Source of the DNA: Paludibacteraceae bacterium | Lineage (GTDB): Bacteria; Bacteroidota; Bacteroidia; Bacteroidales; Paludibacteraceae | Assembly (NCBI GenBank): GCA_017546705.1 | Contig: JAFYSB010000003.1 | Span: 1 to 43,993 of the forward strand | Direction: 5' to 3' | Length of the DNA: 43,993 nt | Shown: positions 200-41,814 of the stretch, piece by piece | How the letters are laid out: each line of letters begins with the position of its first letter | Position numbering within the stretch: the stretch's first letter is position 1 | Position numbers and translations under genes: made by a program | Notes under the pieces: model-generated | The model's input: only the letters and a program-made list of their open reading frames with translations | The model's database searches: none | What the model was told of the DNA's origin: nothing

Positions 200-383
200 C
201 AACATTTTTTTGACATATGCAATACTCTTGCGATTTTTCAGTTCAATCCTGCCATATAAATCTCCGCAATCGGTTGCAAACTCTCCTAACCAACCACTTT
301 TTTACTCCATTTTTCCTACCCCTTATGTGTTTTGTATTTCTCCCATTATCCCTATTTCTTCACTTGCCTTTTCCTTATCAATT

Positions 384-438
384 ACGTACCATATACGTAG
401 GATATACGTAACATATACGTAGGATACACGTATGATAA
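384..438 (+). repeat. Array A: five 11-bp units, ACGTAnnATAy
   Basis: Five consecutive units start at 384, 395, 406, 417 and 428. Each begins ACGTA, continues with a dinucleotide (CC, GG, AA, GG, TG), then ATA, then a final base (T, T, T, C, A). The period is exactly 11 bp with no slippage. The same five units in the same order occur on the minus strand at 25213-25159. Confidence 0.95.
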
Positions 439-530
439 TCGGGTTGTTGACCTAAGAATGCCCCATCTCCCTCCTATCTTCCTCTTACCTTCATCCTGCC
501 TTCTATATGCTTCTTTCCCGCTATCTTTCT

Positions 531-585
531 CGAAACCACCTCGTTACCACTCCGATACCACTCTGTTACCACTGTATCACCATCC
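531..585 (+). repeat. Array B: five degenerate 11-bp units around ACCA
   Basis: Units start at 531, 542, 553, 564 and 575. Each carries ACCA at positions 5-8, with C following in the first four and T in the last; the first four positions vary. The array is more degenerate than array A but has the same period and the same length of 55 bp. Confidence 0.8.
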
Positions 586-676
586 AATACTTTCCCCGTA
601 CCATGCTCCCTATCCTCCGCTCGACGGATTCCCGTCTCGCGAGTCCCAACTCCCAATACCCGCCACTTGTCTTGTG

Positions 677-4569: not shown

Positions 4570-4641
<72 letters not shown>

Positions 4642-12515: not shown

Positions 12516-12740
12516 TGTTGTTTGTTATTAAATTGAATTCGCCTACTCTTTGTCGGATTTTCGGCTTACTCCGTTGGTTAATTATTTTGATTTTTATTTT
12601 GTTGTTTTAACTTCGTATATATGTATAAAAAGGTTTATAACGCTATATTAAATATGTCGAGCAACGGTATCGTTGCGGGTTAGTTACGCTTCTATCTGTT
12701 CGATTAAAAAAGCTTGTAGGTGTTTGTTTATTTCATGCTG
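12516..12740 (-). other. Long leader C with the GACATATTTAA motif
   Basis: The segment from the promoter (12748-12741) to the ATG at 12515 has no ORF of note. Read on the minus strand it has a GCAACG-ATAC-CGTTGC hairpin immediately followed by GACATATTTAATATAGCGTT (12658 downward). This closely resembles 834-853 of RNA A (GACATATTTAAATAGCGTTT) and 37774-37793 of RNA B. The rest is AT-rich and not obviously alignable. Confidence 0.45.
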
Positions 12741-12819: not shown

Positions 12820-12842
12820 TCCCGTCAAATTACCCATCTTTG

Positions 12843-13172
12843 ATGAAATATCGTTTTGCTGACATAGTCATAGACACGTCTTCGCATTGTGTGATGCGTC
12901 GTGCGCAGGTTGTGCGGCTGACCAATATCGAGTTTCGTTTGCTCGAATACTTGGCGCAAAACGCCGACCATATCTGCTCGCGCGAGGATGTCTTGAATAG
13001 TGTTTGGGGACAGCAATTTCAGTACGACACGGGCACGATAGATGTGCATCTCCATTCCTTGCGTCGTAAGTTGGGTTTTGCTTTCTCTAGTTTCTGGTCT
13101 ATCCTCGAATTATTCCAACAGGAGAAGCGTGTAGAGCGTGGTTGGTTTCCCAAAAATCCCAAACGGAAATAG
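12843..13172 (+). CDS. Stand-alone OmpR-type winged-helix protein
   Basis: The product has 109 residues from the ATG at 12843. YRFADIVIDTSSHCVMR and VVRLTNIEFRLLEYLAQNADHICSREDVLNSVWG are the N-terminal sheet and first helices of the OmpR/PhoB DNA-binding domain. DTGTIDVHLHSLRRKLG is the recognition helix. The receiver domain that normally precedes it is absent. The usual wing (TVRGVGYRL) is replaced by a divergent FSSFWSILELFQQEKRVERGWFPKNPKRK. It is probably a DNA-binding regulator without its own phosphorylation input; it could also be a truncated response regulator. Its target is unknown. Confidence 0.7.
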   Translation: MKYRFADIVIDTSSHCVMRRAQVVRLTNIEFRLLEYLAQNADHICSREDVLNSVWGQQFQYDTGTIDVHLHSLRRKLGFAFSSFWSILELFQQEKRVERGWFPKNPKRK

Positions 13173-13205: not shown

Positions 13206-13298
13206 TCGGTGATTATGGCTTGAAGTATCGGTAATTATTCGACGAGGTTCCAATGAGGTTCCAATGAGGTTCCAATCAGGTTCCAATGAGGTTCCAAT
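13206..13298 (+). repeat. Array C: five GAGGTTCCAAT units plus an in-phase upstream extension
   Basis: Units at 13244, 13255, 13266, 13277 and 13288 are identical except for C as the first base of the fourth. Upstream, TCGGTGATTAT (13206) and TCGGTAATTAT (13228) stand 22 bp apart, and the next TCG is at 13239, 11 bp further, so the 11-bp register continues for about 40 bp beyond the perfect repeats. Confidence 0.95.
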
Positions 13299-14499: not shown

Positions 14500-14888
14500 G
14501 GGGATATTTGGTTTTGACAGCAGGTAGAACAGGTATGTAAGCACGCCGAGCATGAACACCGCTCGTTAATCGGGTTCGCCATTATAACTGGCAACAATAC
14601 TGTAGCTCTCGCTGCGTAATCGAAGTATAGTAGATTCGCCTAGTTTCGGCACAAGGTGCTGAACCGAGACATCGCTCCAAGCCAATGTCCAGAGGCTGAA
14701 TGGGTTAAGCGGTGCGGAAATATCGGGACTGGTTGTTGCAGGCTGCGATGCAAGAATGAGATAAAAGCAGATAAGGCAATGGTTGGTGGCTTGGGTCTTG
14801 CCATTGCTCGAAAATTAAGGCCAAGATAAGCGTGTAGAAAGCATATTGGTTCCTTGTTTGGACGCGGGTTCGAATCCCGCTATCTCCA
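14500..14888 (+). ncRNA. ssrA: Transfer-messenger RNA (tmRNA)
   Basis: tmRNA rescues stalled ribosomes and tags the peptide for degradation. The 5' end GGGGATATTTGGTTTTGACAG and the 3' T arm with GCGGGTTCGAATCCCGC and TATCTCCA form the tRNA-like domain. Acceptor strands 14500-14506 and 14881-14887 pair with one G-U. The tag frame at 14590-14619 reads GNNTVALAA then TAA. The length of 389 nt is usual. CCA is not encoded. The tag differs from the GE(T/N)NYALAA type I recall from Bacteroides and Porphyromonas but keeps ALAA. Confidence 0.96.
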
Positions 14889-14895
14889 CTTGAGG

Positions 14896-22312: not shown

Positions 22313-22355
22313 CCCCATACCAAAGGTATAGCAAGGGTATACGAAAAGCAAGTGG
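22312..22355 (+). repeat. Array D: 11-bp units with GGTATA core
   Basis: Units start at 22312, 22323, 22334 and 22345. The second and third read AAGGTATA-GC-A and AGGGTATA-CG-A; the first ends ATACCA; the fourth is degenerate and forms the left arm of the terminator. The same units in the same order are found at 41760-41803. Confidence 0.75.
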
Positions 22356-25097: not shown

Positions 25098-25158
25098 CAC
25101 GGTTTTTGCGATAGAGGTGTTGCATTATACTAAGGTTGAACTTAGCATATCGACAGCT

Positions 25159-25213
25159 TTATCTTACGTGTATGTTACGTATATGTTACGTATATCCTAC
25201 GTATATGGTACGT
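25159..25213 (-). repeat. Array E: five 11-bp units, ACGTAnnATAy, in the efflux operon leader
   Basis: Read on the minus strand from 25213, the five units have dinucleotides CC, GG, AA, AA, AG and final bases T, T, T, C, A. Array A has CC, GG, AA, GG, TG and T, T, T, C, A. That is 52 of 55 identical positions, and all three differences fall in the dinucleotide. Both are preceded by CAATT; other flanks differ. Confidence 0.95.
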
Positions 25214-25242
25214 AATTGAAAGCGGAAAGACATAGAAAAACA

Positions 25243-41759: not shown

Positions 41760-41814
41760 ATCCTATACCAAAGGTATACTAAGGGTATAGAAAAGGTAGG
41801 TAAATCATCGGTAC
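41760..41814 (+). repeat. Array F: 11-bp units with GGTATA core
   Basis: Units start at 41760, 41771, 41782, 41793 and 41804. The first ends TATACCA; the second and third read AAGGTATA-CT-A and AGGGTATA-GA-A; the last two are degenerate. Array D has the same second and third units except for the dinucleotides (GC and CG). Confidence 0.75.

Follow-up and report, generated by a model that had tools for sequence, protein, structure and literature searches.

Introduction

Several described systems pair short repeats with a protein or a mobile element and can be set beside the repeat arrays reported here. In plasmid R1, ParR binds the 11-bp repeats of parC, which form two sets of five; the repeats of pB171 are 10 bp long (PMC4949242, PMC9426499). 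In REP/RAYT systems, the gene lies next to its own repeat, cognate copies of the repeat are dispersed, and repeat and protein co-vary (PMC2817692). The insertion sequence ISPpu9 enters dispersed REP repeats at a single position (PMC8450116). BrickBuilt, a minisatellite MITE of Porphyromonas gingivalis (Bacteroidales), is intergenic and consists of tandem units with a leader and a tail (PMC4596501), and direct repeats of the heptamer TAACTGA lie between genes in some Bacteroidetes (PMC4679880).

The window analysed here is a stretch of 43,993 nucleotides from a Paludibacteraceae bacterium (contig JAFYSB010000003.1 of assembly GCA_017546705.1), which is contig C33 of a draft assembly of 2.1 Mb in 82 contigs (hereafter G000). 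Its arrays resemble parC in that a small protein, putatively DNA-binding in our case, is paired with 10-11-bp direct repeats that precede its own gene or operon, and the array and protein may work as in ParMRC. ParMRC, however, as described in the sources cited above, has one centromere and an actin-like partner per plasmid, whereas 24 dispersed chromosomal arrays are found here. Like the REP/RAYT pairs, our gene lies beside its repeat, cognate repeats are dispersed in the same genome, and repeat and protein co-vary; but the REPs of the cited account are palindromes flanking the gene on both sides and its RAYTs carry a His-hydrophobic-His motif and a catalytic Tyr, whereas our arrays are direct repeats on one side of genes whose products have no conserved His or acid. 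ISPpu9, in the cited description, belongs to the IS110 family and enters palindromes; the transposon found here is of the ISL3 family and lies some distance from arrays of direct repeats with several sequences. Like our arrays, BrickBuilt is found in Bacteroidales and consists of tandem units between genes, framed by a leader and a tail, but it has IS5-like terminal repeats, a variable copy number and, in the cited part of that report, no paired gene; membership was rejected on unit size (23 bp against 11 bp). The TAACTGA repeats are likewise short intergenic direct repeats, differing in their 7-bp unit, their single sequence and, as far as the cited text goes, the absence of a paired gene family. 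For each of ParMRC, REP/RAYT and BrickBuilt, at least one of the defining features tested was absent here, and the arrays were therefore assigned to none of the three. Searches of open-access literature listed no publication that links 11-bp arrays to the protein family described below.

Arrays A and E in the window

Array A (384..438, plus strand) consists of five 11-bp units of the form ACGTA-nn-ATA-y, with nn = CC, GG, AC, GG and TG. It is preceded by a pyrimidine-rich leader ending in TCAATT (369..383) and followed by a tail of two degenerate 11-bp steps that is common to many other copies (439..463) and by a right-hand extension of more 11-bp-periodic, pyrimidine-rich blocks (464..600), all on the plus strand; the extension is shared with some copies, e.g. 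those of L011, L013, L014, L016, L018, L022 and L026. Array E (25159..25213, minus strand) also has five units (nn = CC, GG, AC, AC and AG), with its leader, CTTTCCGCTTTCAATT, at 25214..25229 and its tail at 25134..25158, both on the minus strand. Plus-strand ORFs lie on either side of array E, which is antisense to both. The two arrays are real and exceed chance expectation: the two-unit pattern, allowing up to 2 mismatches, has 8 matches in the window, compared with a mean of 0.03 and a maximum of 1 in 100 dinucleotide shuffles.

The original prediction had described five consecutive units in A and E that agree at 52 of 55 positions, with all three differences in nn and identical final unit bases (T, T, T, C, A), and each of these statements is confirmed. 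Of the two dinucleotide changes that it listed from A to E, TG to AG in unit 5 is right, but unit 4 changes from GG to AC and not to AA. The assertion that the flanks beyond CAATT are unrelated holds in part, the qualification being that the leader (ending in TTTCCnnTnTCAATT) and the tail with its degenerate 11-bp steps recur in many copies in the genome.

RNA folding of A and E on both strands gave nothing unusual (z from 0.07 to -0.95). The three Rfam matches in the window, a DUF805b cis-regulatory RNA (12540-12574, minus strand), a tmRNA (14500-14891, plus strand) and a tRNA (4570-4641, plus strand), lie elsewhere, and an RNA-structured element was rejected. Another five-unit 11-bp array, GAGGTTCCAAT on the plus strand, is located at 13244-13298, right after an ORF (12840-13172) whose product looks by eye like a DNA-binding domain of OmpR type. 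Three places in the genome carry short arrays of an 11-bp TATACCAAAGG-like unit, two of them in the window (22317-22346 and 41764-41798) and one at L172 (3240).

Array copies across the draft genome

The two-unit pattern has 89 matches in G000 with at most 1 mismatch, against none for the reversed control. They belong to 24 dispersed arrays, of which 1, 6, 16 and 1 contain 3, 4, 5 and 6 units, respectively; with 3-6 units in the draft genome and 3-13 in relatives, a strictly constant five units is not supported. In the 113 units of the 24 arrays, the eight frame positions carry the consensus base in 901 of 904 cases, a conservation that is partly built in, as the pattern used for extraction leaves five of these positions invariant and limits the choice at three. 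The predicted defined site with a protected frame is upheld by this count. A protein reading one face of the helix is not, since 8 of the 11 unit positions are fixed, which is most of a turn; for one that reads a unit at each turn, the small basic protein described below is a concrete candidate. The nn dinucleotide is not free to vary: GG occurs in 48 units, AC in 26, AG in 23, CC in 13, TG in 2 and CA in 1. When up to 3 mismatches were allowed, 138 matches were obtained in G000 and 56 for the control. Among the matches listed, 86 are exact, 3 have one mismatch and 11 have two, the last mostly belonging to another 11-bp family, ACGSACAATAn. Copies with one mismatch are few and decayed copies are therefore rare.

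No ORF of over 120 aa contains any of the 24 arrays. Many copies have the same anatomy, in which a pyrimidine-rich leader ending in TCAATT is followed by the array and then by a degenerate tail that keeps the 11-bp step, and some, including A, extend into more 11-bp blocks of different sequence. The spacers containing arrays are of all types (divergent, codirectional and convergent), and the adjoining genes, read by eye, are unrelated; gene names such as htpG, tetR, mlaE, aspT, panC and pdxB were likewise assigned by eye. A regulon defined by gene function was rejected on these unrelated neighbours and a purely 5'-leader element on counter-examples among the array positions, and the provision of stop codons in three frames was considered as the purpose of the arrays but is not supported. 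Around 4000-4340 of L016, two copies of the leader, about 220 bp from each other, enclose another repeated sequence.

Conservation between species

Fifteen pairs of arrays from related metagenome-assembled genomes (MAGs) were aligned, and three (L029/L138, L027/L085 and L027/L127) were excluded because their orientation differs relative to the flanks. In the 12 orientation-checked pairs, which represent 7 loci, share sequences among themselves and were found by the array pattern, the frame is identical at 437/440 positions, nn at 86/110 and position 11 at 44/55, and the far flanks at 734/1104 on the left and 739/996 on the right (about 0.66-0.74). Neighbouring bases in one unit thus behave differently, and homogenisation of the whole tract does not explain the pattern. 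The arrays keep their spacer and orientation at all 7 loci. An array is also present at L210, L211, L241 and L307, loci reached through their genes at which gene order is kept; most other loci reached in this way have a different neighbour or were not resolved. Two spacers carry the array in opposite orientations, with respect to the flanks, in different species (L029/L138; L027 against L085 and L127), which fits either a site that works bidirectionally or independent gain. The ACGTA arrays are patchily distributed, with a match in 17 of 150 genomes of the family; besides G000, more than two matches are present only in G101 (44) and G032 (231).

A family of small basic proteins encoded beside the arrays

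Among the matches listed, ACGTARGATAn arrays occur in Daejeonella (Sphingobacteriia), Flavihumibacter (Chitinophagia), Pedobacter, Mariniphaga and a lake MAG. In L044, L104, L350 and L351, such an array lies 24-80 bp upstream of the start codon of proteins of one family, and at L021 a TAnnTTTG promoter motif is followed by the array and then by a gene of the same small basic protein family. The pairing of array and gene thus recurs in distant Bacteroidota (Sphingobacteriia and Chitinophagia). In G000, the gene matching the ACGTA unit (C55:38270-38605, 112 aa) is on a contig other than the window and carries an ACGTA array of its own in the leader.

The protein family is undescribed. The L209 protein has no match to any Pfam, NCBIfam or PHROGs family. 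The 33 aligned members (alignment A1) gave best E-values of 0.017 in Pfam and 0.0091 in NCBIfam, to families of unrelated names and from one or few members, and a PDB search, with a best E-value of only 5.7, found no sequence relative. Duplicates (L064, L106 and L211) and a protein with an extended start (L225) were left out of A1, and L237 was missed by the motif. Members are basic, with a median pI of 10.2, and R26, R28 and K31 are conserved in A1; at 85% this alignment has no acid or His column, and a Tyr/aromatic column exists.

An 11-bp array, called at a score of at least 25/33, is present within 750 bp upstream of 24 of the 25 core genes fetched by protein, compared with 30 of 452 background genes for the same span and 10 of 467 for one of 230 bp, in a background set not purged of family genes. 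The upstream span was widened from 200-230 to 750 bp after distant arrays had been seen at L215, L389, L390 and L393, and the background was recomputed at both widths. At core genes the arrays are confined to the upstream side: in the 36 with 400 bp on each side (all loci), an array is found upstream in 35 and downstream in none. When 64 family genes were scanned for periods of 6-17 bp, the upstream period was 11 in 41, 7 in 3 and 14 in 2, and no other period was found. The 24/25 count refers to protein-fetched core genes, whereas the counts over 36, 64 and 138 genes (the last given below) mix protein-fetched and array-fetched loci, and the array-fetched copy was retained where a protein had been obtained both ways.

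One core gene, at L222, has no array, and in Pedobacter L400 the array lies downstream of the family gene, from its stop codon onwards. Family genes without arrays fall mostly into other subfamilies. In G000, upstream DNA is available for 19 family genes, only 2 of which are preceded by an array; 12 of 30 loci of a further set have an 11-bp array within 230 bp, and in another set of 52 rows the 13 rows with an array represent 12 genes. The G000 paralogues at L371, L374-L376, L378-L379, L382-L385 and L387-L388 occur as neighbouring pairs without 11-bp arrays, and some of them have CGGTCTAACAG-like repeats of irregular spacing upstream. In Flavihumibacter (L406, G320), a ACGTAGGATA-type array with a 10-bp period, about one turn, precedes the gene for a relative of 201 aa.

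Searches of phages and plasmids with a 96-base element gave no match; one family protein had no match in phages and another none in plasmids. The scan of viral contigs with A1 gave no confirmed member, and none of four viral stretches with the array pattern has a match to the family protein. On these searches, phage or plasmid cargo is not supported.

Unit type and protein subfamily

The type of unit goes with the protein subfamily. Among 138 unique family genes, an array is present in 37 of the 38 genes of the RTRNGKTH group (34 of type ACGnnnnAT), in all 12 of the RQKKFR group (11 with GTGATT or GTTATT), in 3 of 4 of the RRKCYG group and in 14 of 84 in the remaining subfamilies, the gene of L396 giving a second row under 'other'. 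Core and remaining genes differ by unit class (Fisher p = 2.8e-9), and Mantel tests of protein against unit distance in 28 pairs gave 0.40 over all positions (p = 0.0002) and 0.20 at unit positions 4-5 (p = 0.01), all three values including whatever shared descent contributes. The nn dinucleotide (positions 6-7) does not track protein distance (0.12, p = 0.11). Within the MARTTLSHP group, close proteins have different units, ACGGTA in L215 and L216 and ACGATA or ACGTTA in L217, L389 and L390.

Dispersed units also match the leader of a paralogue in the same genome, namely ACGTA and TTTAGTGATT in G000, CCGTAGAGTTC in G138, ACGGCAAAAGn in G101 and ACGTAGGATAC in G032. Paralogues pair with other unit types, so that a single genome probably has several protein/array pairs working in parallel.

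An ISL3 transposon beside the arrays

An element whose transposase contains DDE_Tnp_ISL3 (E = 1.4e-24) and Zn_ribbon_ISL3 (E = 2.4e-09) domains has 21 ends in G000, 10 of which face an array, in every case from the left; eight of these arrays are of the ACGTA type and two of the TTTAGTGATT/TTAGGTGATT type. The distance from array start to element end is 17-19 bp in nine of the ten, with the unit phase chosen, and 7 bp in one. No array is found at the other 11 ends, where period-11 scores are 11-19/33 versus 26-31 for the ten, and eight ends pair by eye with array-side ends through duplications of 7-9 bp. Other genomes of the genus gave eight matches to the ends, of which four (L271, L273, L275 and L276) face arrays with differing units; the array abuts the end in L273 and begins at 21 bp in L275. 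A leader-like sequence is found at L274, and the matches at L269, L270 and L272 (3 mismatches each) face no array.

Proposed function and alternatives

Our preferred reading, to which we give a probability of about 0.6, is that the arrays are dispersed binding sites for a small basic protein of this undescribed Bacteroidota family, which would act both on its own gene and at scattered sites through cognate arrays. Protomers would bind double-stranded DNA next to one another, each occupying an 11-bp unit and thus one helical turn. Binding to the upstream array would control the protein's own gene, and the protein may mark or regulate the other intergenic sites that carry arrays, including A and E.

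The gene beside a repeat whose cognate copies are dispersed is also the pattern of REP/RAYT, as far as it is set out in the cited source (PMC2817692), and the small protein could accordingly copy and spread units of leader, array and tail, the arrays being its mobile offspring. Leader and tail do travel with the arrays, the distribution among the genomes of the family is patchy (17/150), and the inversions at two spacers are what independent gain would produce. We nevertheless consider such mobility unlikely, since the protein alignment has no conserved acid or His column and hence no sign of a nuclease, the arrays are not hairpins, they stand on one side only of core genes, and their position and orientation are kept at 7 loci. 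A separate, unseen regulator that binds the arrays and counts the small-protein genes among its targets appears slightly less plausible still. Binding by the small protein itself is proposed here from sequence comparison, and the arrays do lie at promoters or leaders of its genes, where another regulator could act, but unit type follows the downstream protein subfamily and several unit types occur per genome, each with its own paralogue, so that one extra regulator would be needed for each pair.

Whether the array is read as DNA or RNA bears on the same proposal. The sense orientation of many gene-linked arrays between the TAnnTTTG promoter motif and the start codon, together with dispersed arrays that abut start codons within operons, would suit a protein that binds 11-nt repeats in mRNA leaders. 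DNA is preferred, and reading in RNA is judged decidedly improbable, because in one subgroup (L215, L216, L217, L389 and L390) and in L212 the promoter motif follows the array at a distance of about 105-135 bp, because the L232 array and array E are antisense and the array on the mlaE side is flanked by divergent promoter motifs, and because RNA folding gave nothing conspicuous. An ordinary minisatellite, arising by slippage or as a decayed mobile repeat and having no partner protein, would account for intergenic arrays, some of them beside an insertion sequence, and for the other 11-bp and 7-bp arrays of related genomes. The pairing with a gene family, far above background, largely refutes this explanation, which is also opposed by the rarity of one-mismatch copies and by the different behaviour of frame and nn at neighbouring bases; its chance of being correct is very small.

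Binding of dispersed cognate arrays by the small protein, if true, would provide the first function-bearing context for this unnamed Bacteroidota protein family and one for intergenic minisatellites otherwise attributed to slippage. The natural pairs of protein and unit (ACGTA, ACGATAG, ACGGACG, GTGATT and others) form a series for a recognition code, and the position of the transposon beside the arrays makes targeted insertion directly testable. A more far-reaching version, which we regard as speculative and rather doubtful, is that array-binding proteins of this family, spread across several Bacteroidota classes and each with its own undecamer code, may cover dispersed chromosomal arrays in short helical filaments, that several such pairs, independent of one another, would serve within one cell as addresses for marking the chromosome or for regulation, and that the ISL3 element might recognise coated arrays and land at a fixed distance from them.

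Other unit families

Other short 11-bp arrays are present in sampled stretches of related genomes, and no one motif common to all 11-bp arrays was seen by eye. The TTTAGTGATT and ACGCACAATA families of G000 have similar leaders. Of the 178 genomes of the genus, 32 contain the two-unit TTTAGTGATT pattern, in some cases just once. In three genomes (L337, L339 and L346), TTTAGTGATT-type arrays of 5, 3 and 5 units, respectively, lie between codirectional genes read by eye as panC and pdxB and stop 4 bp short of the start codon. ACGCAC arrays are found at seven loci in G000, two of them with identical flanks as printed, and match the leader of a gene in G281 (L419); this gene resembles one on contig C68 of G000, in front of which the ISL3 element now lies. 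The upstream ORFs of two G000 loci (L331 and L334) terminate within the first unit of an ACGCAC array. Arrays with a 7-bp period dominate over 11-bp arrays in the stretches sampled from G087 (L187 and L188) and G134 (L185 and L186).
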